Assembly: GCF_000970205.1 (NCBI RefSeq) | Contig: NZ_CP009512.1 | Coordinates: forward strand, 1,178,001-1,242,000 | DNA: 64,000 nucleotides | Source: Methanosarcina mazei S-6 | Lineage (GTDB): Archaea; Halobacteriota; Methanosarcinia; Methanosarcinales; Methanosarcinaceae | Direction: 5' to 3' | Shown: piece by piece, positions 15,943-50,888 of the stretch | Layout of the letters: every line of letters starts with the position of its first letter | How positions within the stretch are numbered: position 1 is the first letter of the stretch | Translations under genes and position numbers: made by a program | Notes under the pieces: generated by a model | Databases searched by the model: none | What the model saw: the letters and a program-made list of their open reading frames with translations, nothing else | Told to the model about the DNA's origin: nothing

Positions 15943-16690
15943 TTTCAATTAATATGTGAGATCTCCTCTGCCGGGAAAACTGTAAAACAAAACAAAATCT
16001 GTAAAACAAAACTAAATCTGTAAATCCGGCATAAAATTGTAAAACAAACATGAAACTATGGAACAAACATAAAACATTCAATTTTTAAAGTCCGGACTTG
16101 AACTTTAATATAATATTTTAATATATTTTTAGCTCCTGGGAGGCGCCTAACATCCCAAACTTTATTAATATGAAAGCACAATCTATTCTAAAGTTGCTAA
16201 AAAATTTCTATTAAGCGACTGGTTTCACTAATAATATTAATTACAATATGAAATATTTATTACCAGAAAGTGCCTTGTGGATAGGTCACTGGATAGTTAC
16301 TGGCAATCTAAATAAGATATAAAAATCGATGTACCGGAAGAATTGCTCTACCGCTATAATGACTATCCGGTTGCCTGAATTATTAATAAAATACATATTT
16401 GAGGATTTGAGGCTAATTTCGGAGCAGAGGTTGGGAAAGGAAAATTGAGGCTCCTGGAGAACGGGACTGCCTTGAATGAGGCAAACTCAGTTCTCAAAAC
16501 CGGGTTGAGACTATGGAACAGGCGTCTTTTCAGGTTGCAGTTCATTGTTACAATTTTTAAGGGACGACTTTGCTCCATATCATACGAATACTTTCACCCC
16601 GCATCACTCAACTTTATATCCTCTGCTGCAGTAATTTAGAGTGCCTCACAATAAAATTATGATAACCATGAGGCTTGCGGAGAATGAAAT
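15943..16690. other. Intergenic region with a five-copy 19-bp repeat
   Basis: No complete gene is seen in 748 bases. Five contiguous 19-bp units (15981-16075) follow the pattern tgtaaaacaaacatgaaac with variation. Around 16440-16560 a short frame reads GLRLWNRRL, which faintly resembles the C-terminus of the antitoxin-like family found at 47711; this may be chance. The final 60 bases before 16691 should hold the RPA promoter; no clear TATA box stands out. Confidence 0.55.
15981..16075. repeat. 19-bp tandem repeat, five copies
   Basis: The units start at 15981, 16000, 16019, 16038 and 16057, each exactly 19 bases. The first two differ at one position, and the third is the most divergent. It directly follows the antiporter gene and is AT-rich. 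Confidence 0.85.
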
Positions 16691-17956
16691 ATGAAACAAA
16701 CTGCAGAATCCATTAGAGACCGGTTTATGAAACTCGGCATCGATGTTCCTGTTGAGGACATCGAAAGCAGACTCGACGAGCTGATTAAGAAGTTCAAGGT
16801 ACCTTCTAACGAAGCGCAGCGCAGCGTAACAAACTACTTTTTGAAGAAATACTCCATTCCTAAAAATGAGTTTTATGTCAGGCAGGCTGAACCCCAGCTC
16901 ACCAAAATTGTGGACATTGTAGAGAACGGGCAGTGGGCAAACCTTAAAGCAAAGGTTATTCAGCTGTGGGAAAACACTCATGAATCCATTTCTCAGGTCG
17001 GGCTTCTTGGGGATGAGACAGGAATCATAAAGTTTACCATCTGGAAAAATGCCGAACTTCCCCTTCTTGAACAGGGGGAAAGCTACCTTCTAAGAAGCAT
17101 AGTTGTCGGGGAATACAATGACAGGTTCCAGGTCCAGGTTAACAAGAACAGTTCCATAGAGAAGCTCTCCGAGCCCGTTGAAGTTGGAGGCGGCGATTTC
17201 ACTCCAGCAGCAAGGGAAGCTGAGCTGAGAAATATTGCTGACCTTACAGGAAACCAGTGGGCAACAGTAAGAGGGAAAGTTATCCAGCTCTGGGAGAACT
17301 CCCACGAATCTATAGAACAGGCAGGGCTTATAGGGGATGAGACCGGAGTCATCAAATTTACTAACTGGGCAAGTTCCGAGCTTCCGGATATGGAAGAGGG
17401 CAGGAGCTACCTGCTGAAGAATGTTGTTGTTAACGAATGGAACGGCAAGGCTCAGGTCCAGCTTAACAGGTCAAGTTCCATAGAAGAGCTCGACGAAGAT
17501 ATTGAAGTAAGGACCTCCATGTCTTCCTATTTCGGGGCAATGGTGGATATACAGACCGGTTCCGGGCTCATAAAACGCTGCCCTGAATGTAAAAGGGCTC
17601 TTGTTAAAGGGGCATGTGCAGAACACGGTAAAGTTAAAGGGGAATATGACCTCAGGATAAAAGCGGTCCTCGATTCCGGGACTTCCACTCAGGACGCCCT
17701 TATCAACAGGGAACTTACGGAAGAGCTTTCAGGCATCTCTCTTGACAGCGCCATTGCAATGGCTGCAGACGCTCTTGATCCGGGAGTCGTACTGGACAAG
17801 CTCAAACACGAGCTTGTCGGCAGGTATTATACCATCACCGGTCACAAGCTTGACCGCTATATCCTTGTAGAATCGATTACTCCACGGACTTCCCTTGACA
17901 GGGAGCTCCTTGACCAGATGCTTGCTGAACCGATTGCTCAGCCGGAGGTGGAGTAA
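16691..17956 (+). CDS. rpa: Replication protein A-like single-stranded DNA-binding protein (two OB folds plus zinc finger)
   Basis: It binds single-stranded DNA in replication and repair. An N-terminal helical region (1-65) is followed by two duplicated OB folds (about 70-170 and 185-285). Both contain a near-identical core: KVIQLWENTHES with GLLGDETGIIKFT, and KVIQLWENSHES with GLIGDETGVIKFT. A C-terminal zinc finger begins CPECKRALVKGACAEHG. This architecture matches the two-OB-fold RPAs of Methanosarcina acetivorans (RPA2/RPA3 type, from memory). The last 110 residues are conserved in that group. The stop is directly abutted by the ATG of the next gene, whose Shine-Dalgarno (ggaggtgga) lies within this gene. 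Confidence 0.93.
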   Translation: MKQTAESIRDRFMKLGIDVPVEDIESRLDELIKKFKVPSNEAQRSVTNYFLKKYSIPKNEFYVRQAEPQLTKIVDIVENGQWANLKAKVIQLWENTHESISQVGLLGDETGIIKFTIWKNAELPLLEQGESYLLRSIVVGEYNDRFQVQVNKNSSIEKLSEPVEVGGGDFTPAAREAELRNIADLTGNQWATVRGKVIQLWENSHESIEQAGLIGDETGVIKFTNWASSELPDMEEGRSYLLKNVVVNEWNGKAQVQLNRSSSIEELDEDIEVRTSMSSYFGAMVDIQTGSGLIKRCPECKRALVKGACAEHGKVKGEYDLRIKAVLDSGTSTQDALINRELTEELSGISLDSAIAMAADALDPGVVLDKLKHELVGRYYTITGHKLDRYILVESITPRTSLDRELLDQMLAEPIAQPEVE

Positions 17957-18526
17957 ATGGCAGGCTTCTTCAGAGAAGCGGCTCGCAGGGTTTTTGCCCG
18001 GGAGCTGAAAGACTCGAACCTCACCTCAAAGGATGAAAGCGACCAGTATGCCCCTCAATATCTCCTTACCCCCACAGGGGCGAAAGTGAACCGCATCTTT
18101 ATTGTGGGCACACTCATTGAAAAAGAAGACATCGGGACCGACTCCGAATACTGGAGGGGCAGGGTTTCCGACCCAACAGGTTCCTTCCTTATTTATGCAG
18201 GACAGTACCAGCCAGAAGCCGCTCAGTTCCTTGCAGAATGCGAACTTCCGGCTTTTGTTGCCGTAATCGGCAAGACCAGTACCTATACCACGGACGACGG
18301 AAATGTCCTGACCTCAATCCGCCCTGAGTCTATCCAGCAGGTAGACGAGCTGACGAGGAATCTCTGGGTACTTGATACTGCAAAGCAAACCCTTGAAAGG
18401 ATAAGAGCTGTTGAGGCACAGGAAGACCCCAACGCAAGGCTTGCAAAAGAGCACTATTCCATTGATACTGAAATTTACCGCGAAATGGTGAAAAAAGCTC
18501 TGGAATCACTTCAAGATAATACCTGA
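17957..18526 (+). CDS. RPA-associated protein (OB-fold partner of RPA)
   Basis: This 189-residue soluble protein belongs to the archaeal RPA-associated family (rpap in haloarchaea, from memory). There it is co-transcribed with and physically partners RPA. The first 110 residues form an OB-like beta barrel (VNRIFIVGTLIEKEDIG, WRGRVSDPTGSFLIYAGQY), and the rest is helical. The ATG begins at the base after the RPA stop, with a strong ribosome-binding site ggaggtgga inside the RPA gene, so the two are a tight operon. A hairpin terminator follows at 18572. Confidence 0.88.
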   Translation: MAGFFREAARRVFARELKDSNLTSKDESDQYAPQYLLTPTGAKVNRIFIVGTLIEKEDIGTDSEYWRGRVSDPTGSFLIYAGQYQPEAAQFLAECELPAFVAVIGKTSTYTTDDGNVLTSIRPESIQQVDELTRNLWVLDTAKQTLERIRAVEAQEDPNARLAKEHYSIDTEIYREMVKKALESLQDNT

Positions 18527-35262: not shown

Positions 35263-36534
35263 ATGGAATCAAAATATACAGTTCTTGATATGTTTTCTGG
35301 CGCAGGAGGGCTTACAGAAGGGTTCTTTCAGCAGGGATTCAAATTTGTTTCTCATATAGAGAAAAATTGTCATGCTAGGAATTCTCTGGAAACCAGAGCG
35401 ATTTATCATTCTCTGAAAGATTCCAGCAACGAAAGGATTTATAGAGACTATATTTCAGGAAATCTCAACAGAGATGAATTTATTCATAAATTCAAAGAGC
35501 TTGAACTCACTCCAGCTGGATTATTACAGGGGGAAGTAACTGAATCAAACGAAACTACTATGATAAAAGAGATTAAAGAGCATTTAAAAGTCATTGACAG
35601 CGATTCGGTTGATGTCGTTATAGGAGGGCCACCATGTCAGGCTTATTCTGTTGCCGGGAGAGGCAGAAAGCCAAAAGAAATGAAAGACGATCCCCGTAAC
35701 TATCTATATAGGCATTACATCTCTTTCTTAAAAAGCTTTGAACCAAAAATTTTCGTATTCGAAAACGTTCCGGGAATTAAAAGTGCAATAAATGGGATTA
35801 TCTTCTCAAATTTACATGAAGAACTGGAAAAACTGGGATACAAAACAGAAGCTCATATGCTGAATGCAAAAGATTTTAGTGTACTTCAGGAAAGAAACCG
35901 GATAATATTTATTGGCTGGAAAAATGAGCACGATCTTTCATATCCTGACTTTTTAAAAACTCCTCTTGGCAGGTTTCATGTTTCTTCCCTTTTGAATGAC
36001 CTCCCCCCCTTGCAAGCTGGCGAAGGTACTGAAGGTCCTGCAAAATATACAAAGCCGTTTTCATGGTCATCTGAATACCTTCAAAGATTTAAGATTCGAG
36101 AAAAGAAAGATATACTTATTCAACACAACGCAAGAATACATAATCCTAGAGATCGTACCATATATAGACTTGCAATTGAAAAATGGGATAAAGAAAGAAA
36201 ACGGCTCAAATATAATGAACTATCACCGGAACTCCAGACACACAAAAATAAAACGTCTTTTCTGGATAGATTTAAGGTGGTCAATCAGTATGGTTACTCC
36301 CATGCTATACTTGCTCATATATCAAAGGATGGTCATTATTTCATTCATCCAGATATTCATCAGGCAAGATCTCTGACGGTTAGAGAAGTGGCAAGAATAC
36401 AGTCATTTCCTGATAATTATAAATTCGAAGGCCCTCGAATCGCGCAGTATGCACAGATTGGTAATGCCGTGCCTCCTCTTATGGCTAAAGGGATAGCAGT
36501 TGAAATCGAAAAGATGCTTGAAGAGATTTCATGA
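35263..36534 (+). CDS. drmMII: C5-cytosine DNA methyltransferase, DISARM DrmMII-like
   Basis: It methylates cytosine at C5. The motifs are in order: FSGAGGLTEGF (SAM binding), GGPPCQAYSVAGRG with catalytic Cys125, VFENVPG, QERNRIIFIGW, the target-recognition region, then VREVARIQSFPDNY and QIGNAVPP. The frame opens with GTG at 35251. The ATG at 35263 (MESKYTVLDMFSGAGG) is more family-like; neither has a strong ribosome-binding site. Its end overlaps the next gene by ATGA. No cognate restriction endonuclease is beside it. The downstream drmA-drmB-drmC-like genes suggest it marks self DNA for a class 2 DISARM system. The target sequence is unknown. Confidence 0.9.
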   Translation: MESKYTVLDMFSGAGGLTEGFFQQGFKFVSHIEKNCHARNSLETRAIYHSLKDSSNERIYRDYISGNLNRDEFIHKFKELELTPAGLLQGEVTESNETTMIKEIKEHLKVIDSDSVDVVIGGPPCQAYSVAGRGRKPKEMKDDPRNYLYRHYISFLKSFEPKIFVFENVPGIKSAINGIIFSNLHEELEKLGYKTEAHMLNAKDFSVLQERNRIIFIGWKNEHDLSYPDFLKTPLGRFHVSSLLNDLPPLQAGEGTEGPAKYTKPFSWSSEYLQRFKIREKKDILIQHNARIHNPRDRTIYRLAIEKWDKERKRLKYNELSPELQTHKNKTSFLDRFKVVNQYGYSHAILAHISKDGHYFIHPDIHQARSLTVREVARIQSFPDNYKFEGPRIAQYAQIGNAVPPLMAKGIAVEIEKMLEEIS

Positions 36535-37205
36535 ATACAGTTACCAGAGATAAAGAATATTTCTCAAAAATAAAAATAATAAGAACTGAACTTCTTATAT
36601 GGGGAGAGGAAAATCTCAGAAAGTTTCCATGGAGAGAAACCTCTGATCCCTATAAAATTGCCGTTGCTGAAGTGATGCTTCATAGAACGAAAGCTGATCA
36701 GGTAAAAAATATTTATGAACAATTTATTCTTAAATATCCTGATTTTGAGTCAATTGTTAAAGCTGGTCGTGAAGCAATTAAAGCTGATCTAAAATCTCTT
36801 GGACTTTTCTGGCGTGCAGATTTACTTTACGACATGGCTGTGGAAGTTATGGAAAAATATGGTGGGGAACTGCCTCTGGATAGGAAAAAATTAATGACAA
36901 TGCCGGGAGTAGGAAATTATATCTCAGCAGCCATTCTATGTTTTGGCTATAACTTTCCTGAGCCAGTACTGGATACAAATACTGTCCGTGTTCTTGGAAG
37001 AATTTTTGGGCTGAAAATTACTGATTCATCAAGGAGGAGCAAGCTTTTCTACGGGATTATGCATGATCTTGTTAATTTCTGGGATCCGAGAACTGTTTCT
37101 TTCGCTTTAATTGATTTTGCAAACGTGGTTTGTATTCCCAGTGATAAACCCAGATGTGAAATTTGTAGTCTTAGAGATATCTGTATCTATTACTCAAAGC
37201 TGTAA
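36531..37205 (+). CDS. HhH-GPD DNA glycosylase, Mig-like G:T mismatch glycosylase
   Basis: A 224-residue member of the endonuclease III/MutY superfamily. It has the MutY-type start FPWRETSDPYKIAVAEVMLHRT, the helix-hairpin-helix MTMPGVGNYISAAI, and the catalytic Asp in PVLDTNTVRVLGR. A C-terminal iron-sulfur cysteine set reads C-x7-C-x2-C-x5-C (usual spacing x6). At the position of the endonuclease III Lys120 it has Tyr (GVGNY), as in the Methanothermobacter Mig G:T glycosylase (from memory). MutY's long C-terminal 8-oxoG domain is absent. It overlaps the methyltransferase by ATGA, so the two are co-translated. The likely job is to restore C at T:G mismatches made by deamination of 5-methylcytosine. 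Confidence 0.88.
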   Translation: MNTVTRDKEYFSKIKIIRTELLIWGEENLRKFPWRETSDPYKIAVAEVMLHRTKADQVKNIYEQFILKYPDFESIVKAGREAIKADLKSLGLFWRADLLYDMAVEVMEKYGGELPLDRKKLMTMPGVGNYISAAILCFGYNFPEPVLDTNTVRVLGRIFGLKITDSSRRSKLFYGIMHDLVNFWDPRTVSFALIDFANVVCIPSDKPRCEICSLRDICIYYSKL

Positions 37206-37440
37206 GCTCCGAATTGTGATTCTTAATACTTTTCACTAATTTATTTTTGAGCAACTGTATTCTAAAATATATACTCTTGTATCTTTCATGAAAATATAAA
37301 TCTAGAGAACTGATTCTATAGAAAATTATTTAACCAAATTTTGGAATACTAACTTGGTATAATATTGTAAAATATTTAACAGATTGCATCTTTAATAATT
37401 TCTTTGGATTTTACATTCATTGGACATGTGGTGCGAGAAT
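37206..37440 (+). promoter_or_regulatory. Gap with promoter-like sequence before drmA
   Basis: The 235-base AT-rich spacer separates the methyltransferase-glycosylase pair from the helicase block. gaaaattatttaacc (37320-37334) and gtaaaatatttaac (37367-37380) resemble archaeal BRE/TATA elements, so drmA to drmE may have their own promoter. Confidence 0.45.
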
Positions 37441-40400
37441 ATGCGGGATAAATATATTGAAGAATTGATAAAAGAAGTTTTAGGGCCCAGAAATGGATCT
37501 GAAGAAACAATGATTGGATCAGATCCTTATACTGAATACATCACTGGAGTTATTATTCCAAAGGATTGTAAACAAAGAGAACTTAGTCCAGATTCGGAAA
37601 TTCTTAATGTTGAGGGTGATGATAAGGGGGCAGAAGATGCTGATTCACAGGAAAACACATTTTCAATACTCCCATCTGAACTTGATCCTCGTGTAAGATC
37701 TAAATCATTTGGGATATCTTTCTTAGTTAAGGGTAAAGATCCTTATTTGAAAGTCTGTGTAACTTGGGGAAGATATTTCAAAGAAGAACTTATTTCAGAA
37801 AATTCTAATAGAAAGGTAGTTACCGAAACGGATTTTTCTTGGAAACGAAAACCTTACTGTGAAATTTTTAATCTCAACATGTCTGGAGAATCCTCTGAAG
37901 AAATAACTATTTACGAAGGAATAGATGGAAAAATTGTATTGAATAGTAGGGGGATAAAGGTCAATAATTCACTCCATATTATTCTTAGTCTGATAAATGA
38001 GTTAAAGATAGGAGATTGTTATGGAGACAAGGTGATTGAATCGTCTCTTTATCAGCCTTCTATACGTGTCATTCTTGGAAATGATTGCAAATTAGAGTCA
38101 ATTGATTCCGAAGAAAATGATGAGCTTAACTTTATCTATAGAGAAAATCCTGTCCTAGCAAGAGGTCACATGTGTTCCTCTATATGGAAGGATGTAGATT
38201 ATCAAGATAAATTTGACATTAAAGTATTATGGCCTGATGGTATTCATTTTGATAAATGTCGTGAATTCATAATTTGTGATGTAAGAAGTGAATTTGTTCC
38301 CCTTTATCCAAATCCAGCACCTATTTTTGAATGGACAAATTCTGAAATCTCGAATTCTCCAGTTTTCTCAGCTTTAAAGTTATCCGAAATGTGGGATGAA
38401 ACAGAAATAAAAGATTATTTAAATCCTATCCTAAAAAGTTATGAACAATGGATTCTGAAAAATGAAACTTCACTTGAGGATTTTTCTGAGAAGGATAAAA
38501 TTCTAGCAAAAAAGCTTATAGATAAACAAAAAATTTGCCTTAAAAGGATTAATAGAGGAATAGAATGCCTTCAAAATGATAAAGATATTCTTCTGTCATT
38601 TTGTTTTGCTAATAAAGTTATATGGTTACAAAACCTCTGGAAAAGGGGCGGCAAACTGGGGGAGAGTAATATTGACTTTGTTTGGAGACCGTTCCAGCTT
38701 GCATTTTTCTTAATGAATCTGGAATCTCTATCCAATAAAAACTCCGAATTCAGAGATTACGTTGATTTGCTGTGGGTGCCTACAGGAGGAGGAAAAACAG
38801 AGTCTTATCTTGCAATGATGGCATTTGTTATGGTTTTAAGACGAAGGAATGCACAGGCAAGAGTTCGGAATGGAGAAAAAGATAACAAAGATATAACTGG
38901 GGCAGGAACTTCCGTAATTTCTAGGTATACATTACGTCTTTTAACCGTCCAACAATTTAGAAGAACACTTATTATGATCACGGCAGCAGAGTACCTGCGT
39001 GTTTTCAATAATCAGGGACTTTCTGGATGGAGGCCACAAAAGTATTCTACATCTGAAGATTGGCTATACGGAACTGTAAGATTTTCTGTAGGAATGTGGG
39101 TAGGAGGAGGAGTATCTCCTAACCATCTTCGTGGTGAACAAGGAGCGATTAAAGCATTACAAAACAGTTCATCGTCAGAAGGTGAACCTGCTCAGATCGT
39201 AAAATGCCCAGTATGTGGTACTTGGCTTGCTGTCCCCAGTTCGGGTTTACCAGCCGGGGTTAATAAAATATATTTCGTAATTAAATACGAAAAAACTCTC
39301 TCTGAATTGAAGAGTCATGTTTCAAAGCTCACATCAGTATCTGATTTGATTACGGAAATTCAAGTTTTAGATGATAGATGCCTTATCAACTATTTCATAA
39401 TGTATACTAAACTTGACAGCTCCAGAAAAGTTGACGAAAAAGAATTTGATGATATTATATCGAAACTTGAAAAAGAGCTTAACGTCAAAGTTGCCTCTTT
39501 CAGACCTTCACGATCTGGTTATTTCCCTTCATACAATGAAGTTGGAAGAAGAAAAGATTCACCTGTTGATTTTGAAATTTTTTGTCCGAATCCTGAATGT
39601 GATCTTAACAGTAATGTTAATCATAAGGAAGGCGTACCCTCCAATGTTTCTGGAAATTCAAAAAAGAAATTACCAGACGGTCTATTTGTGAAAGACAATG
39701 CCTCTCCATTTGCTGAATATTCACATATTCCTATTCCAGCATATACTGTTGATGAACAGATATACCATAGATGTCCAACTATTATTGTAAGTACTGCAGA
39801 TAAAATAGCTAGATTGGCTTTTGAACCCAGATGTAGTTCTATATTTGGAAACATAAGTAAATATAATGGATTTTATGGTTATTACCGTGGTGACTCAGAA
39901 GAAGTATTGCCAAATAATTGCACCAAAAACGCGATTTCAAAGTATTCCTCTAATGTAAATCCATTCCTTCCGCCTGATATGATAGTACAGGATGAACTTC
40001 ATTTAATGGATGGACCTTTGGGTAGTATGTTTGGTATTTATGAGTGTATTGTCGATGGGCTTATCCGCGAATCAGGTGGATCTCCAAAATATATTGCATC
40101 TTCTGCAACTGTTAATGATGCAGCGATTCAAGTTAAAAGTCTTTTTAATAGACCTTTATCCCAATTTCCTGCATATGGTTTAACTTTCAAAGACAGTTTT
40201 TTTGTTAGAATGCCTGCGTGGTCATCTGGATGGGATGAAAATAGACCTGGGAGAGTTTACATGGGAATCTATGCACCAGGAAGAGGTCCGCTAACACCGA
40301 TTATAAGAATCTGGTCAAGGATGCTGCAAACTGGTGGAGAGAATTGTTCTGAAAAGGGTATTGTAAATTTCTGGACTCTTGTAGGCTATTTTAATTCTAT

Positions 40401-41253
40401 TAGGGAGTTAGGAGGAAATAGATCACTTTTTAGAGAAGACATTATTGAAAGATTAAACAATATTTCCAAAGATTCAGTTCGAAATTTGGATGCAGAAAAA
40501 GTGGTTGAACTTTCAAGCCGGATAAACTCTACTGATATTCCACAGCTACTTGAAGAACTAGAACAGGGAAAGAATCGCACTATAAATGAAAACCCTGATG
40601 CTATATTCACTACATCAATGTTTGGAACTGGTGTAGATATTCCTCACTTATCCTTGATGGTTGTAAACGGGCAGCCCAAAACAACATCTCAGTACATTCA
40701 GGCAACTGGTCGAGTAGGAAGAGATCACGGAGCTCTGGTTGTCACATTTTATAAAGCTGGGAGAGCAAGAGATCTTAGCCATTATGAAATATTTACAGGG
40801 TACCATCATAGAATAAACATCGAGGTAGAACCTGCTTCGGTTTCTCCTTTTTCAGACGGATGTTTAGAGAAAGCAGCCGGTCCTGCAATTGTTTCTTTTC
40901 TAAGAAATATGCCTGATCCCAGTTCTAGATGGTTTGCTGAATCAGGTCATACTATTCAAAATGAGGAGTCATTGAAAGACTTTGAAATTTTTTTGCGTAC
41001 TTGCTTACCTAGTGACATTTCCAAAAAAGTAATCCAGTGTTTCCGTTCTCAGTATGATCGGTGGCTTGGAATCTCACAAAAGCTTGGTTTCACTGAAAAT
41101 TTGGTTTATAATGAGTATACTCTATATAGGCCTCCAGAAAAAAATGTAATACTTGGGGATCCAGCACATGAAAAGGTTGGTTTATGTGTTGTTTACAAAA
41201 ACGCGCCACAATCTCTTCGTGAAATAGAAGAAACTACTGCGTTTGAGGTGTAA
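37441..41253 (+). CDS. drmA: DISARM DrmA-like superfamily 2 helicase
   Basis: A large ATP-dependent helicase of about 1270 residues. Motif I is VPTGGGKTESY (about 445), motif II is a DELH box in VQDELHLMD (about 848), motif III is SSATV, and motifs V-VI are FGTGVDIPH and QATGRVGRDHG (about 1086). An insert between motifs I and II carries CPVCGTW and CPNPEC zinc-type cysteine pairs. The N-terminal 350 residues are the DrmA-specific region. The frame opens with TTG at 37420 and has ATGs at 37426 and 37441. The start MRDKYIEELIKEVLGP at 37441 resembles DrmA N-termini as I recall them. In DISARM, DrmA acts with DrmB on invading DNA. Codon use is AT-rich compared with genes upstream. Confidence 0.88.
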   Translation: MRDKYIEELIKEVLGPRNGSEETMIGSDPYTEYITGVIIPKDCKQRELSPDSEILNVEGDDKGAEDADSQENTFSILPSELDPRVRSKSFGISFLVKGKDPYLKVCVTWGRYFKEELISENSNRKVVTETDFSWKRKPYCEIFNLNMSGESSEEITIYEGIDGKIVLNSRGIKVNNSLHIILSLINELKIGDCYGDKVIESSLYQPSIRVILGNDCKLESIDSEENDELNFIYRENPVLARGHMCSSIWKDVDYQDKFDIKVLWPDGIHFDKCREFIICDVRSEFVPLYPNPAPIFEWTNSEISNSPVFSALKLSEMWDETEIKDYLNPILKSYEQWILKNETSLEDFSEKDKILAKKLIDKQKICLKRINRGIECLQNDKDILLSFCFANKVIWLQNLWKRGGKLGESNIDFVWRPFQLAFFLMNLESLSNKNSEFRDYVDLLWVPTGGGKTESYLAMMAFVMVLRRRNAQARVRNGEKDNKDITGAGTSVISRYTLRLLTVQQFRRTLIMITAAEYLRVFNNQGLSGWRPQKYSTSEDWLYGTVRFSVGMWVGGGVSPNHLRGEQGAIKALQNSSSSEGEPAQIVKCPVCGTWLAVPSSGLPAGVNKIYFVIKYEKTLSELKSHVSKLTSVSDLITEIQVLDDRCLINYFIMYTKLDSSRKVDEKEFDDIISKLEKELNVKVASFRPSRSGYFPSYNEVGRRKDSPVDFEIFCPNPECDLNSNVNHKEGVPSNVSGNSKKKLPDGLFVKDNASPFAEYSHIPIPAYTVDEQIYHRCPTIIVSTADKIARLAFEPRCSSIFGNISKYNGFYGYYRGDSEEVLPNNCTKNAISKYSSNVNPFLPPDMIVQDELHLMDGPLGSMFGIYECIVDGLIRESGGSPKYIASSATVNDAAIQVKSLFNRPLSQFPAYGLTFKDSFFVRMPAWSSGWDENRPGRVYMGIYAPGRGPLTPIIRIWSRMLQTGGENCSEKGIVNFWTLVGYFNSIRELGGNRSLFREDIIERLNNISKDSVRNLDAEKVVELSSRINSTDIPQLLEELEQGKNRTINENPDAIFTTSMFGTGVDIPHLSLMVVNGQPKTTSQYIQATGRVGRDHGALVVTFYKAGRARDLSHYEIFTGYHHRINIEVEPASVSPFSDGCLEKAAGPAIVSFLRNMPDPSSRWFAESGHTIQNEESLKDFEIFLRTCLPSDISKKVIQCFRSQYDRWLGISQKLGFTENLVYNEYTLYRPPEKNVILGDPAHEKVGLCVVYKNAPQSLREIEETTAFEV

Positions 41254-41255
41254 AT

Positions 41256-43058
41256 ATGACAAGGGAATTTCAGCATATAAGCAGATCGCAGTTTGTTCTT
41301 ACTTATGGTCCGGGTTCCGTAATCGAAACTAAAAAAGGACCTCGGATTATTCCCTCACTGGAAAAAGGACTTGGTGAGAACTTTAATCCGGATACTTTTC
41401 GAAGATTTGAAATCGCAGAGACAAGGATTTCCAAGTACATTAAAAGCAGATCGGAAGAAAAAATAAATATTCGCATATTAGCTTTGCCTACAAACGCTGG
41501 ACTTGGAAAGCAAAGCAATTATCGTGTTTACTCAACATATGTTTTCCCGGTGTGGAAAGTCTGCTATGGAAGAAGAGGAAATCATGCCCCCATTTTGTAT
41601 AACGGATCTAAATGCCCTCTATGTGAAACTAACGATGAATCTTCTGCAGTTAGATTTGTTGCAGCGTGTCCAGATGGTCACCTCGATGAAGTAAACTGGA
41701 ATTATGCTGTCCATAAAAACTCGTCATGTAAACCAGACTACTTCCGCTGGAAAGCAAATGGAAGTTCTCTAGAAGATATTATCATAGAATGTCCTATTTG
41801 TAGAGCTAGAAACAATATGAAGGAAATTTACAAAATGAATTTTTTCTGTAAGGGAAGAATTCCTGAAAGAGAATCTCCTTCTAGCGATTATTTTCCCATT
41901 TATACCAAGCCTGATAGGTCAAAAAATTGTGAAAAAATGATGAAAATAATGCAGAGGCAGTCAACTTCACTCAGGGTTTCTGAAACAATGACCCTTTTGA
42001 CAATTCCAGAATTCGATAATCAGATATCAAGAATTCTTCAAAGGTATGATGTTTCAATAGCTCTTGATACAATGATGAAAATGCCTTCCGATATTTTACT
42101 TAGGATGGATGCTAATACTGTTATAGACTGGATTTCAAGTAGTCTAAAAGGAAGAATTCCTGATGATTCGCTTGAAGTTATAAGCAAAGAAATTAGAGAA
42201 AAAGGTGTATTAGAGTTCTGTGATCTTTATAAACGCTTAAACGATGAAAGCAAATCTTTCATGAGTTTAATGTATGAAGAGTTTGATTCACTGCTATCAG
42301 GAGCAGGAAGTTCAACCAAAAATTTTGTTATGGGGCATCCAAAAAAGATAATCTCAACCTCACCTCTCATTCCTGAATTGCTTGTTCACCCAATTAGTAA
42401 GATCAGAACAATCACAGTTCAGCTTGGCTACAGACGTATAGTACCAACTGCAGATGAAAGTGAACCCCAATTGTTAGTATCATCAGGTGTGTATTTACCT
42501 TCGGATGGAAGTATTTGGTATCCAGGGTATGAAGGATTTGGTGAAGGTATATTCATTACATTTGGTGAAAGAAAAATTCCTGATCTAACCTCAAAACTCG
42601 CCTACAACCTGTGGAAAGAATACACAGATTCAGGTATGAAATCTGATTCAGGGTGGTCGGAGGTTTCTGTAGAACCCGAATTTGTCTGGCTCCATACACT
42701 TTCTCATGCAGTCATCAGAGCTTTATCCTCACACACTGGTTATTCAGCAGTTTCACTGAGGGAAAGAATTTACATATCTCGTGATGGAAAAAATGGTGGT
42801 ATTCTTATTTATAATACATCTCCAGGAGAAGATGGAGGAATGGGTGGACTTGTAGGGTCAGTAGACATATTCCACGAAATTATCAATAGTGCAGTTGGGA
42901 ATATTTTGCTTTGTTCTAATGATCCCCTTTGTTGTGATGCAACTAAATCAGCAGACTGTGTAAATGGCGCGGCATGTTATAGTTGTCTTTTGATTTCTGA
43001 AACTTCATGTGAACATAGGAACCTCTGGCTTGATAGGCATCTTCTCATTGGAGATTGA
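41256..43058 (+). CDS. drmB: DISARM DrmB-like protein with DUF1998 domain
   Basis: A 600-residue protein beginning REFQHISRSQFVLTYGPGSVIETKKGP, a start typical of DrmB. An N-terminal zinc-type segment CPLCETNDES with CPDGHLDEVNW follows. The C-terminal DUF1998 domain contains WLHTLSHAVIRALSSHTGY, EDGGMGGLVG and a cysteine-rich end (CCDATKSADC, ACYSCLL, SCEHRN). DrmB forms the core complex with DrmA in described systems. It starts 3 bases after the drmA stop, and its TGA overlaps the following start. The length and domain order fit a full-length protein. Confidence 0.88.
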   Translation: MTREFQHISRSQFVLTYGPGSVIETKKGPRIIPSLEKGLGENFNPDTFRRFEIAETRISKYIKSRSEEKINIRILALPTNAGLGKQSNYRVYSTYVFPVWKVCYGRRGNHAPILYNGSKCPLCETNDESSAVRFVAACPDGHLDEVNWNYAVHKNSSCKPDYFRWKANGSSLEDIIIECPICRARNNMKEIYKMNFFCKGRIPERESPSSDYFPIYTKPDRSKNCEKMMKIMQRQSTSLRVSETMTLLTIPEFDNQISRILQRYDVSIALDTMMKMPSDILLRMDANTVIDWISSSLKGRIPDDSLEVISKEIREKGVLEFCDLYKRLNDESKSFMSLMYEEFDSLLSGAGSSTKNFVMGHPKKIISTSPLIPELLVHPISKIRTITVQLGYRRIVPTADESEPQLLVSSGVYLPSDGSIWYPGYEGFGEGIFITFGERKIPDLTSKLAYNLWKEYTDSGMKSDSGWSEVSVEPEFVWLHTLSHAVIRALSSHTGYSAVSLRERIYISRDGKNGGILIYNTSPGEDGGMGGLVGSVDIFHEIINSAVGNILLCSNDPLCCDATKSADCVNGAACYSCLLISETSCEHRNLWLDRHLLIGD

Positions 43059-43528
43059 TGATGATTGAAGAAATTGTTCCTGTGGCTACGGGTGAAAAAT
43101 GGGTTGGATACGGAATAAGGTCATTTAGATCGGTAATCAATGACCTGATTTCGAATTCCACTAATGAACTTTCTCTTACAGCTTATGTTCTCACAGACAT
43201 GAGCATTGTAACTAAATTGAGAAATGCCCTGGAAAGAGGAGTTCAGGTTGAAATATACTTATACGAAGATGAATTTGCGACAAAAAACGAGGCTGTAAAT
43301 TATATATTTAATTTACAAAAAGAATTTAGTTATCTAAAAATATACCGAGTTGAGGACAAAATACTTCATGCTAAAGTTCTTGTTGCTGATGGCAAGAAAG
43401 TTCTTTCTGGATCGGCTAATTTTACATTTAGTGGAATGACAAATAATTATGAGCTTGGTTTCTTGGTAGAGGATCCATCCATAGCGCTCCAGATTTTAAA
43501 GTTAATAAAAAAGTTGGGGGAAAAATGA
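43058..43528 (+). CDS. drmC: Short DrmC-like phospholipase D-family protein
   Basis: It carries one HKD motif: H-x-K-V-L-V-A-D in LHAKVLVADG, followed by SGSANFT. It therefore probably dimerises to build the active site. About 156 residues is short for DrmC, which is usually longer. The N-terminal part (RSVINDLISNSTNELSLTAYVL) matches the PLD fold start. Three possible starts exist: TTG 43055, ATG 43058 (which overlaps the drmB TGA) and ATG 43061. GGAG at 43050 favours one of the ATGs. Its stop overlaps the next ATG. DrmC is reported as dispensable in DISARM; a nuclease or phosphodiesterase role is inferred. Confidence 0.82.
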   Translation: MMIEEIVPVATGEKWVGYGIRSFRSVINDLISNSTNELSLTAYVLTDMSIVTKLRNALERGVQVEIYLYEDEFATKNEAVNYIFNLQKEFSYLKIYRVEDKILHAKVLVADGKKVLSGSANFTFSGMTNNYELGFLVEDPSIALQILKLIKKLGEK

Positions 43529-46500
43529 GAACTTATTACCATTTTGCTTATACCTGTCCCAATTGTCATGAACCTCACGTAACTGGGAAACCAATTGAAT
43601 TTGTTGACGAGAAACGTCTTAGATGTACTTCTTGTAATGCATTGTTCTATACTGAAGTAAATCTGTTCACAGCATCATTTCCCGAAACTGTAAAGTATGT
43701 TACAGAAAAGGAAGGAAAAAAAGCGGAAAATTATCTTTCCCACTTGCCTCTTATATGGAAAGTTGTGCCAAATGAAATAGAAAAATCTTATCTTGACTGG
43801 ATAAAAGATAATCCTGAAGGAATATTTCTTGTCACTTGGCCATGGAATGACCTTCGTTTTATCCCCCTTCTCGCATCAGAGTATCTTTTAACTTTCCCTA
43901 ACAGAAAAGTTGCAGTCATCGGAAATTATTCTATAAATACTGAAAGTAAATCTTATGTGCCTTCATATTCTTCGTATGATGTTTTTAGTAAGACTGTTTA
44001 TATTGAGGGTGAAGATAATTTTCTCCCACCTAAACTAAAGCAAGAAAGCAACAATCTTAAGAGAGAAATGGTTTTTGAAAAGGAAGATGTTGTAGAGGTT
44101 AAGTATAGAAAGTTTGGTGGAAATGAAATAAGAACTAAATTATGCAGTGGTACTGTTAGAAAGTGCAAGAATTCTATAATTAGAGAAGCCGAAGAATTTG
44201 GTGGGAATTTCTTAAGAGAAATTTCTGTTCCTAAAAATAATGGAAAAAAAATTGAAGTTATAAATGAAAATGGAGAATGGAATGTTTCTCTTGAAAAACA
44301 AACTCGCTGGACAGGGAGTCTTAACTATAAGAAGATATGGCTTTGGGAACTCCTTGTTAATTCTACAAAATTAAAAAATTGTGGAACGGAAATTGAGTCT
44401 TTTTTTTACGATGAAGAAACTACTGAGAAAATTCTTGATTACAGAGCCAAGTTACACTTTTTTTCAATTGAATCTGAAATTTCAGAGGTACTTAGAAGCA
44501 TAAAAATAGTATCTCCTGATGTACTTATAATTGAAAATATAGATGATATTATCTCGGATTCCAGATACTTTGGCCCTAGAACAGAAAAGCTAATGGAGTT
44601 TTTGAGAGAAGCTGATGTCAGTACAGTTCTGATGTTTTCAACTAATCCAGATATCCGTCACTTATATCGAATTGGAGAAAGCGAAACTATTTTTGGTTCT
44701 ATTAAGGTATTATTTCACACTTGGGATTCCCCCTCTTTTCTTAGTGATCTGAATCTTGATAGCGGTTCAAGACACCCAAATCCTTTATCTTCAAAAATGG
44801 AACAAATGCCTAAAGAAAAGCTTAGAGAGATTAAACCAGAATACATCTCGATTGATTCCTATGATGAGATTTCTGAGTCATTGGAGGAATGCTTGAAGAG
44901 TATCGACGGGGAAACTAAAAAAGATGTAAAACTGTATTTTTCTAAAGTTTTTTCAACACTTTTAAATGTTGTTGGAGAATATGGAAGGCCTGAAGTACTA
45001 TCCGTAATGAAGCAGTGGAATTCCCAATTGACTTATGATATTTTACTTAATAATCTAAGCCAGGAAATTGAACAAGAACTCTTCTATTCTTTAAATAATT
45101 CTTTGCAAAAAATTTTCTATGTTAATTCATATACTCAGAGGAATCCTCTTAGAGAAAAAATACTGGATATCATCAAGGAAATATTCAAAAAAAATAAGGA
45201 GTGCTTCGTTACGATAATTGTTCCCCGCTTCGAAGCTAAAGGAACTGAACGTTTACTTCGTCAAGAGGATTCGATATTTGAACAAATTTCATCTTTTCTA
45301 ACTGTTTGTAGTTGGGATAAATTAGGAAGTATTGAAGGGACTATTCCAGAGGGCTTCAAACATTTTGTACTATCTACAGGATATCCCTCATTAAGTTACA
45401 ACTTGCATTCTTCCGATGTTGATAAATTTTTCTTTGTTGGAACTACTAAAACAATAGGAAAGATAAAAGAAATTATAGACAAGAGACTTCTTGAGATAAA
45501 TGCCTATCCCGTCGTCAGACTTTATGATAACAATCCTGCACCTCGCCTGCTAAGAGATCTTTTGTCTAAAGTTAACTTTGATGAGAATGAAAAATTACAA
45601 TATATTCATAATTTTGAATTGGGCGAGGAAGAGTATTCTATGTTTTATTCAGGGGCGAGTACTTATGGGGAAACTTCAGATATTTCATATGAATCTAGTA
45701 ATTATTATAAGTTAACTTGTGGGGAGATTGCTATCCTGTGCATTGACTCTCAAAATAGAGGTTTATTTCTTCCTCTCGATAGAGATATTATGCTTAAGGA
45801 TGGAAATTCTTTCCGAGAAATATCCTTTAGTCTCGATTCATCAACGCCCTCGGTCAAAAAGGGATTAATTAATATGGAGGTTATTCTCAATCGTTTGGGT
45901 TTCTATCAATCATTTAGATCTATATTTTTTAAATTCATGATGAAGTGGGGAGACAAACTTCAATTCCAGAAAGGACCCTTTGAGTGGAAGGGATTTAAAC
46001 AATTATTCAGTAATTCGGTTCTATGGATTAATCTTCTGGAGCGGGCAATTGAAATTTTTGCAGAACAGAATCGTATCTCTCTCCAAAAGTCAAAGGATAA
46101 AATTGCAAAGATTCTAGCAGATTCAGGAATTACCGCAAAGAATCCTGATTACATTTCTAGTTGGTGGACAAATTATGAAGAAGTTACAGTTGATTCTGGA
46201 TCATATAAATTATACAGAATTGAGCATCCTTTCACCCCTCAAGATATGAGAATTATTTTTGAATGTATCTCTAAAATATCCTCTTTTTTAATTACTGATA
46301 CAACGATTGCGAATAAATCATATGCAGCTGCTCTTACAATCCAAAATTTAAGGCGAAATGTGCTTAAGAGCTCTAGTACAAGAGAGGGTAAGTATTCATT
46401 TATTTACTCAAAACTTGAAAAGCAAATGAGTCAACTTATAAAAGATGCAGAATTATTCAAGGTTAGTTCCGTTGAAAAAGTTAATATCTCACAAGAAATT

Positions 46501-46554
46501 GAAGCAATGAAGATAATCTACAACTATAATGATTTCTTTGAAAGCTTCGATTGA
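43525..46554 (+). CDS. Large protein at the end of the DISARM cluster, possible divergent DrmE
   Basis: I do not recognise this 1009-residue protein with certainty. It begins with a zinc ribbon (CPNCHEPHVTG, CTSCNALF). Residues about 90-140 (GIFLVTWPWNDLRFIPLLASEYLL) look like the first strand and helix of a helicase lobe without a GKT Walker A. DVLIIENIDDII (about 333-344) with VSTVLMFSTNPD mimics motifs II and III. Residues about 545-670 resemble a second RecA-like lobe (CFVTIIVPRFEAKG, HFVLSTGYPS, KFFFVGTT). A degenerate helicase fold is inferred. The ATG overlaps the DrmC-like stop, so it belongs to the operon. Class 2 DISARM systems carry DrmE of unknown function, so a divergent DrmE is the best guess. 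Confidence 0.7.
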   Translation: MRTYYHFAYTCPNCHEPHVTGKPIEFVDEKRLRCTSCNALFYTEVNLFTASFPETVKYVTEKEGKKAENYLSHLPLIWKVVPNEIEKSYLDWIKDNPEGIFLVTWPWNDLRFIPLLASEYLLTFPNRKVAVIGNYSINTESKSYVPSYSSYDVFSKTVYIEGEDNFLPPKLKQESNNLKREMVFEKEDVVEVKYRKFGGNEIRTKLCSGTVRKCKNSIIREAEEFGGNFLREISVPKNNGKKIEVINENGEWNVSLEKQTRWTGSLNYKKIWLWELLVNSTKLKNCGTEIESFFYDEETTEKILDYRAKLHFFSIESEISEVLRSIKIVSPDVLIIENIDDIISDSRYFGPRTEKLMEFLREADVSTVLMFSTNPDIRHLYRIGESETIFGSIKVLFHTWDSPSFLSDLNLDSGSRHPNPLSSKMEQMPKEKLREIKPEYISIDSYDEISESLEECLKSIDGETKKDVKLYFSKVFSTLLNVVGEYGRPEVLSVMKQWNSQLTYDILLNNLSQEIEQELFYSLNNSLQKIFYVNSYTQRNPLREKILDIIKEIFKKNKECFVTIIVPRFEAKGTERLLRQEDSIFEQISSFLTVCSWDKLGSIEGTIPEGFKHFVLSTGYPSLSYNLHSSDVDKFFFVGTTKTIGKIKEIIDKRLLEINAYPVVRLYDNNPAPRLLRDLLSKVNFDENEKLQYIHNFELGEEEYSMFYSGASTYGETSDISYESSNYYKLTCGEIAILCIDSQNRGLFLPLDRDIMLKDGNSFREISFSLDSSTPSVKKGLINMEVILNRLGFYQSFRSIFFKFMMKWGDKLQFQKGPFEWKGFKQLFSNSVLWINLLERAIEIFAEQNRISLQKSKDKIAKILADSGITAKNPDYISSWWTNYEEVTVDSGSYKLYRIEHPFTPQDMRIIFECISKISSFLITDTTIANKSYAAALTIQNLRRNVLKSSSTREGKYSFIYSKLEKQMSQLIKDAELFKVSSVEKVNISQEIEAMKIIYNYNDFFESFD

Positions 46555-47710: not shown

Positions 47711-48001
47711 ATGACTCTCACTGTGGACATAAAAGGTGACTTCACGCCCCAGGAAGTAAGTGAAGTCATTCGGGCAGCGCTGGAGCAGAATGAGCGCGTT
47801 GCAAAATACAAAATAAAGAAGTATTCGGATATTTGTGGGAATTTTGAGGACAAATACGGGATGAGTTCCGAGCTTTTTATGGAAAAATTCGACTCAGGCG
47901 ACCTTGGAGATGACGAAGACTTTTTCAACTGGTATGCGGCAAAAAGGGGACTTGATATCTGGAATAAAAAACTTGAGATCATCTCAGGGATCCGGATATG
48001 A
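47711..48001 (+). CDS. Antitoxin-like small protein, first gene of a two-gene module
   Basis: A 96-residue charged protein, part of a family with two more copies in this window (50598 and 55603). Shared motifs are [ST]xQEVxEVIRxALExxxxVAKYK near 13-35, a helix around DICGNFEDKYG, and the end D-x-FFNWYAAKRGLDxWNKKLEII. The ATG has aagggat upstream. Its last bases overlap the next gene by ATGA, a layout typical of antitoxin-toxin pairs. I infer it is the antitoxin to the DUF6516/TumE-like neighbour. It could be another kind of small regulatory partner. Confidence 0.72.
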   Translation: MTLTVDIKGDFTPQEVSEVIRAALEQNERVAKYKIKKYSDICGNFEDKYGMSSELFMEKFDSGDLGDDEDFFNWYAAKRGLDIWNKKLEIISGIRI

Positions 48002-48369
48002 ATTTCAGGGACTATTACTTGAAAATTGAATCCTTGCTTAAAGAGTATTCCCTGATCACTCATTTTTCTGTTGATTTTGAAGAGATCACTGCTGATGCAG
48101 GGTCCTTAAAAGGTAACATAGAGCTGATGAACGGTTCTATTCTTTATTTCTTCGAGTTTGTTGAAATCCGCAGTAACAGTCCTGTACTCACGAAATACAG
48201 GTATCACTGGCAATCACCACAGGGAAATCTGGTAAAAAGGTGGGACAATGCCCCCCACCATAAAGAGCTTGACACTTTTCCTCATCATGTTCATGGTCCT
48301 GAAGAGGTGCGCCCTTCTCCTCCGGTTGACCTGAACTCTATACTTGAAGAAATTATTAATTCTGAATGA
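47998..48369 (+). CDS. DUF6516/TumE-like toxin
   Basis: A 123-residue protein that resembles the small DUF6516 (TumE) family of toxin-antitoxin modules, based on its layout. It starts with a beta-rich half, FSVDFEEITADAGSLKGNIELMNGSILYFFEFVEI. The conserved core TKYRYHWQSPQGNLVKRWDNAPHH follows, with the terminal histidine-rich DTFPHHVHGPEEVRPS. The Y-R-Y-H-W and A-P-H-H residues are the most likely active-site candidates. It overlaps the antitoxin-like gene by ATGA, so it is translationally coupled. The mode of toxicity is not known to me. The name rests on memory of the family, not on a search. Confidence 0.7.
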   Translation: MNFRDYYLKIESLLKEYSLITHFSVDFEEITADAGSLKGNIELMNGSILYFFEFVEIRSNSPVLTKYRYHWQSPQGNLVKRWDNAPHHKELDTFPHHVHGPEEVRPSPPVDLNSILEEIINSE

Positions 48370-50597: not shown

Positions 50598-50888
50598 ATG
50601 GACCTTACATTGCAGATTGATACCGATTACTCGCTGCAGGAAGCAAGCGAGGTTGTTCGCTCGGCTCTGGAACATGAGAAGCATCTTGCAAAATATAAGG
50701 TACAGCGTTATGCAACGATCTGCGATGAATTTGAAGACCGGTACGACCTGATATCCACTGAACTCATCAAAAAAATTGAGGCTGGTGAATTTCTCGACGA
50801 CGACAGGTTTTTCGACTGGTATGCCGCAAAAAAAGGGCTTGACCACTGGAAGAAAAAACTGAAGGTCCTTAATGCAGTCAGGTTCTGA
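50598..50888 (+). CDS. Solitary antitoxin-like protein (paralogue of 47711)
   Basis: A 96-residue paralogue of the putative antitoxin at 47711. It shares SLQEASEVVRSALEHEKHLAKYKVQRY and the end FFDWYAAKKGLDHWKKKLKVL. No toxin gene follows; the 285 bases after it contain no matching frame. The ATG is preceded by aagggataaat. The immediately upstream copy of this leader carries a decoy three-codon frame. It may be an orphan antitoxin that guards against the complete module, or a family with a different role. Confidence 0.75.
   Translation: MDLTLQIDTDYSLQEASEVVRSALEHEKHLAKYKVQRYATICDEFEDRYDLISTELIKKIEAGEFLDDDRFFDWYAAKKGLDHWKKKLKVLNAVRF

Follow-up and report, generated by a model that had tools for sequence, protein, structure and literature searches.

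The six-gene operon at positions 35263-46554 of the window, the 64,000-nucleotide stretch of Methanosarcina mazei S-6 DNA analysed here, is assigned to the long-DrmA, C5-methylating type of DISARM, and is predicted from this family to be antiviral. It also encodes a Mig-type DNA glycosylase, which overlaps the methylase gene. Since related operons carry either such a glycosylase or an unrelated Vsr endonuclease, never both, repair seems to belong as a rule to C5-methylating DISARM. The operon is most likely a variant of DISARM whose T:G-mismatch repair module is interchangeable and would protect the self DNA marked with 5-methylcytosine (5mC).

The first-pass annotation had described six plus-strand genes, and all of the reading frames were found where it had placed them (Table 1), in a complete host genome of 4.14 Mb. 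The start codon of the methylase gene (M) is an ATG. Of the ATGA overlaps that had been proposed, those between M and the glycosylase gene (36531-36534) and between drmC and gene 6 (43525-43528) are present, but that between drmB and drmC is not; this junction, TTGATGATG, is TGATG if drmC starts at the ATG of position 43058, and TTGA if it starts at the TTG of position 43055. The gap between the glycosylase gene and drmA is about 215-235 bp, depending on which of the candidate DrmA starts is chosen (TTG 37420, ATG 37426, or ATG 37441).

Table 1. Genes of the operon, given in positions of the window.
Gene or product	Position	Strand	Length and evidence
drmMII-type C5-cytosine DNA methyltransferase (M)	35263..36534	+	~423 aa; PADLOC DrmMII PDLC02649 2e-215, PF00145
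Mig-type HhH-GPD DNA glycosylase (predicted)	36531..37205	+	224 aa, 4-Cys FeS motif; PF00730, 1kea E 2e-53
drmA (long form), SF2 helicase	37420..41253	+	NF038326 DISARM_DrmAL, PADLOC DrmA
drmB (DUF1998/MZB protein)	41256..43058	+	600 aa; PADLOC DrmB, NF038324
drmC, single PLD domain	43055..43528	+	~157 aa; PADLOC DrmC, PF13091
gene 6, Zn-ribbon protein with SF2-helicase-like core (model), in DrmE position	43525..46554	+	1009 aa; AF2/Foldseek/VIA

Compared with the operon of the nearest relative, all six genes show dN/dS values of 0.09-0.25 (0.11-0.13 for the glycosylase), and they are thus under purifying selection, with none of them decaying. The same six-gene order is repeated in other archaeal orders, so that the arrangement is not due to chance. 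The operon lies between two reading frames that, by sequence, encode an aminopeptidase-like protein and a helix-turn-helix regulator. In other Methanosarcina (L058, L057, and L059) it begins next to the same aminopeptidase-like gene, which suggests vertical descent of the operon at this location in the genus. Downstream of the operon, at 47711-48369 on the plus strand, a gene for a 96-aa protein with a weak match to the PADLOC candidate-defence family PDC-M44A is followed by one for a TumE-type toxin (PF20126, 1e-25; PDC-M44B), and this pair is likely a toxin-antitoxin module. A solitary, paralogue-like 96-aa reading frame lies at 50598-50888.

The DISARM assignment made at first sight is borne out by the profile searches, in which DrmA, DrmB, and DrmC fit DISARM models far better than those of any other family. 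DrmA scores 2014 bits with its PADLOC model (E 0) and 1871 bits with its NCBIfam model, for which the cut-off is 999; DrmB scores 857 bits (3e-258) and 486 bits (cut-off 240), respectively. DrmC is matched by PADLOC over residues 3-156 (219 bits, 4e-66), and its 97 bits with NF038319 lie under the cut-off of 133. M scores 713 bits as DrmMII and is the sole PF00145 or C5-methyltransferase gene found in the host genome; it supplies the DNA methyltransferase, DrmMI or DrmMII, that a DISARM system requires. The class 1 genes drmD and drmMI are absent from the operon and from the vicinity of drmA. Class 2 DISARM consists of drmMII, drmE, drmA, drmB, and drmC. The earlier label of class 2 stands as far as DrmMII, DrmA, DrmB, and DrmC are concerned but not for DrmE, and it is only a rough one, since nothing recognisable as DrmE is present and gene 6 encodes a different protein, specific to one subclade.

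Gene 2 is identified from its sequence as an HhH-GPD glycosylase of the Mig type, with a predicted activity on T:G mismatches. It matches the Pfam HhH-GPD family with 37 bits, above the cut-off, and among solved structures the top match to its profile is the G-T mismatch enzyme of Methanothermobacter (1kea). The alignment reveals the motifs HRT, PGVGxY, and DTN, in which HRT takes the position of QQT in MutY, a Tyr follows PGVG where endonuclease III (Nth) has Lys, and DTN contains the conserved Asp; the four cluster cysteines are also present. Both the QQT motif and the C-terminal 8-oxoG domain of MutY are absent from this alignment. PADLOC labels the glycosylase generically as a 'Type II nicking endonuclease' (PDLC03398), the only name that its models give to Vsr as well, and a PHROGs search with the glycosylase returned no match. 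Four other HhH-GPD genes in the host genome are Nth- or Ogg-like by sequence and lack this combination of motifs, which leaves gene 2 as the only Mig/MutY-type glycosylase of the genome. No Vsr was found in the host genome.

Further loci were collected by a phylum-wide genome search starting from DrmA, a scan of 84,980 species, and a survey of Chloroflexota. The linkage of glycosylase and methylase in relatives, a check set beforehand, was found in 16 further DISARM loci, giving 17 with the window, from seven archaeal lineages and Chloroflexota. They come from four Methanosarcina (window included), two Archaeoglobales, Methanophagales, Aciduliprofundum, another Thermoplasmata, Bathyarchaeota, Thermococcales, and, in bacteria, Thermanaerothrix and four more Chloroflexota; in a Lokiarchaeote the glycosylase gene lies about 4 kb from the methylase gene. 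In most of the 17 loci the two genes overlap or are at most 12 bp apart. The Thermococcales pair is found downstream of drmABC rather than upstream, which indicates that methylase and glycosylase move as a unit. In the trees, 16 of the 17 DISARM glycosylases form one clade (support 91/88; 15 of them at 99/97), the Lokiarchaeal enzyme being the sole exception, and this clade, like the Mig of plasmid pFV1, lies outside the MutY clade (100/99). The methylases of the same loci belong to several lineages; the strongly supported clade that contains the Methanosarcina methylase does not include those of Archaeoglobales, Thermococcales, and Thermanaerothrix. It can be deduced from this pattern that the glycosylase line stayed with DISARM while the methylases were exchanged.

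The Vsr-like repair role that had been suggested for the glycosylase finds comparative support, in that a true Vsr usually goes with the methylase in DISARM loci that lack a glycosylase. There are ten such loci, and in an eleventh (G091) about 19 kb separate the methylase-Vsr pair from drmA. Vsr overlaps the methylase gene by ATGA in Nitrospira, follows it by 58 bp in a Thermoplasmata bin, and is convergent to it within 12 bp in G387 and G101. It also accompanies the methylase on a Deinococcus plasmid and in the Chloroflexota loci L144 and L150, and in a further Chloroflexota locus (L153) it adjoins drmC, with a partial C5-methyltransferase gene at the opposite end. Two Methanolobus species show the order methylase-ATPase-Vsr; the intervening gene in these loci (L060 and L061) encodes a GHKL/MORC-like ATPase, and the N-termini of the two ATPases look unrelated. 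None of the surveyed loci holds both glycosylase and Vsr. At the genome level the exclusion is weaker, as three glycosylase-bearing Chloroflexota genomes have a Vsr elsewhere; in one set of six genomes with a glycosylase, none has a Vsr. The methylases of G387, G101, and G091, which go with Vsr, are sister to those of Methanosarcina, which go with the glycosylase (91/91, inside a 99/99 clade), and over well-supported branches the methylase tree shows at least four changes of the glycosylase or Vsr label, the DrmA tree at least five to six. Among the 21 loci of the long-DrmA clade, 15 have a glycosylase, five have a Vsr, and one, on a truncated Methanobrevibacter contig, has neither.

The association with C5-methylases was examined in Chloroflexota, for which 40 DrmA loci were read regardless of their content. 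A glycosylase or Vsr gene is present in 7/11 loci with a C5-methylase and in 0/29 without one (Fisher p=1.8e-5, a test that takes loci as independent, which is true only in part); when only a repair gene directly beside the methylase is counted, the former figure becomes 6/11 (p 1.2e-4). In the 12 plasmid-borne DrmA loci that were read, neither gene is found in any of the nine without a C5-methylase. Both genes are missing from seven loci that do have a C5-methyltransferase gene near DrmA (L065, L119, L123, L176, L177, L179, and L181). Outside DISARM, Mig-type glycosylases and Vsr also accompany C5-methyltransferases on plasmids, and two relatives of M have neither gene annotated nearby. In four loci (L044, L045, L046, and L068), DrmA and DrmB come with a UvrD-like helicase and a NERD-helicase that replace drmC; these loci, possibly a separate YprA-type system, belong to a Lokiarchaeote and to three genomes from a single Halobacteriota family (f26).

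These data bear on what else the glycosylase might be doing in the operon. It could be an antiviral effector, whose excision of mismatched or modified bases in invading DNA would generate abasic sites or nicks that feed DrmAB or block replication, the Vsr-type nucleases of other loci then being alternative effectors. Such a role would not be without parallel, because base-excision restriction enzymes of the PabI family are known (PMC10273834) and Vsr-type nuclease domains are fused to YprA helicases as effectors in ARMADA (PMC12458937). It is nevertheless improbable: both genes track the C5-methyltransferase in the Chloroflexota and plasmid counts, the pair stays with the methyltransferase whether the latter is upstream or downstream of drmABC, standalone relatives go with ordinary C5-methyltransferases, and the known activity of both enzyme families is the correction of T:G rather than an attack on normal DNA. 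Repair would be the simplest account, and both repair genes follow the C5-methylase and not drmABC.

In another reading, the glycosylase would be a mere passenger of a methylase cassette, like the V gene of a restriction-modification system, with no tie to DISARM. The plasmid-borne pairs outside DISARM are in line with this, but the DISARM glycosylases make up one clade while their methylases are of different lineages, a repair gene is present in 20 of the 21 long-DrmA loci, and the two relatives of M outside DISARM have none annotated nearby, so we judge the passenger reading unlikely. Far less credible still is a MutY-like A/G enzyme of general oxidative repair that stands here by chance. 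By name, mutY is the best NCBIfam match of gene 2, but its 150 bits are far under the cut-off of 286.5, and the lack of the QQT motif and the 8-oxoG domain, the position outside the well-supported MutY clade, and the linkage to C5-methyltransferases all argue against it. The repair of T:G mismatches at 5mC remains the preferred reading.

Gene 6 had been described as a 1009-residue zinc-ribbon protein, and the N-terminal four-Cys ribbon is indeed invariant across its homologues. An identity with DrmE was not upheld by PADLOC, NCBIfam, or hhalign, although it occupies the position of DrmE in class 2 loci. It has no PADLOC or Pfam match at all, its only NCBIfam match is below the cut-off (E 0.006), and searches against PHROGs and, with its profile, against the sequences of solved structures gave none. 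A distant DrmE was considered and rejected, as no DrmE model of PADLOC or NCBIfam matched and hhalign comparisons with the DrmE of L067 and with the protein in the DrmE position of L119 gave probabilities of <1%; since DrmE was represented by just one sequence in either comparison, a very remote kinship is possible. A search of plasmids for DrmE yielded no match. In L067 (Nitrospira), DrmE appears to be split at 16126-18494 into two overlapping frames of 177 aa and 650 aa, perhaps by an assembly frameshift.

The AlphaFold2 model of gene 6 has a mean pLDDT of 69.6, and its residues ~79-680 resemble SF2 helicases (the Dicer, Hef, and RIG-I family in Foldseek; VIA Z about 12). Across ten homologues, no Walker A or DExx motif is conserved, and these positions read TWPW and NxDD. 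The C-terminal third, folded alone, gave no Foldseek match at E <0.001; an intein-like fold was dismissed, its best VIA Z of 6.4 being judged meaningless. Homologues are present in L036, L038-L041, L061, L064, L070, and L071, and the DrmA tree shows a single gain of the gene, in a 12-locus clade (SH-aLRT 99) within archaeal DISARM. On the evidence of the model, gene 6 appears to be a degenerate protein of the SF2-helicase fold with an N-terminal zinc ribbon, which is not recognisably DrmE, and it may serve as a catalytically dead, nucleic-acid-binding accessory subunit.

It is well known that 5mC deaminates to T, that Mig removes T from T:G mismatches, and that Vsr nicks at them. For the operon of M. 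mazei, we infer the catalysis, substrate, target motif, and host benefit of the glycosylase along the following lines. M would methylate cytosines of self DNA, as its family suggests, and deamination of 5mC at the self-marked sites would give rise to T:G mismatches. Like its relative Mig, the co-translated glycosylase would remove the T, after which C would be restored by base-excision repair; by this means, it is proposed, the immune mark would not mutate the host. In sister loci, the unrelated Vsr endonuclease probably does the same repair. DrmA-DrmB, together with DrmC and the putative accessory protein of gene 6, would act on unmethylated or incoming DNA, by extension from the solved DISARM of Serratia, in which DrmAB is activated by 5'-overhang DNA and its ATPase is lowered by 5mC (PMC9142583). 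A bolder and rather doubtful extension is that T:G repair is an obligatory module of C5-methylating DISARM, with glycosylase and Vsr interchangeable in the slot, as the system could not safely run without repair; we hold with equal reserve, as part of the same proposal, a stronger form in which the repair enzyme might also aid the discrimination of self from non-self by making or clearing abasic or nicked intermediates sensed by DrmAB.

Compared with known class 2 DISARM, the operon shares the specific matches to DrmMII, DrmA, DrmB, and DrmC, the C5-methylating character, and the operonic organisation, but differs in the co-encoding of a Mig-type glycosylase with drmMII and in the unrelated 1009-aa protein of apparently degenerate helicase fold that follows drmC in place of a recognisable DrmE. 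The pairing of Mig with the MthTI C5-methylase, cited from the outset as a precedent, is indeed present on Methanothermobacter plasmid pFV1, where the glycosylase is 37% identical, has the same motifs and size, and lies near a C5-methyltransferase; however, pFV1 carries a classical restriction-modification system with an NgoPII-family endonuclease, whereas the DISARM glycosylases form a clade of their own. Other plasmids also have pairs like that of Mig and its C5-methylase. With the Vsr of Dcm-type methylases the glycosylase shares the proposed undoing of 5mC-to-T deamination at methylated sites, although fold and chemistry are unrelated, Vsr being a PD-(D/E)xK nicking enzyme and the window enzyme one of predicted base excision. 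ARMADA and the YprA family likewise have a DrmA-type helicase core and include Vsr-type domains, but in ARMADA the Vsr forms a domain at the C-terminus of the helicase, and the methylase is PglX-like, whereas that of the window is a C5-methylase (PMC12458937). The 2025 survey of the YprA family has Vsr only as such a helicase-fused domain and does not mention a glycosylase (PMC12458937). No report of the linkage was found in the open-access papers that were searched on DISARM in combination with a glycosylase, Vsr, or Methanosarcina. Collectively, Mig next to a C5-methylase is known already from pFV1, and glycosylase or Vsr as a component of DISARM, of which no description was found, appears to be new.

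The annotation of DISARM would gain two components from this analysis, a repair enzyme and a degenerate helicase, the latter being matched by no PADLOC model. An immune system that marks self with a mutagenic base would carry its own antidote, and the repeated filling of the repair slot by two unrelated enzymes may represent a testable principle of the cost of immunity. In archaea and Chloroflexota, the occurrence of glycosylase or Vsr beside related methylases would offer a clean natural experiment on how 5mC is maintained.
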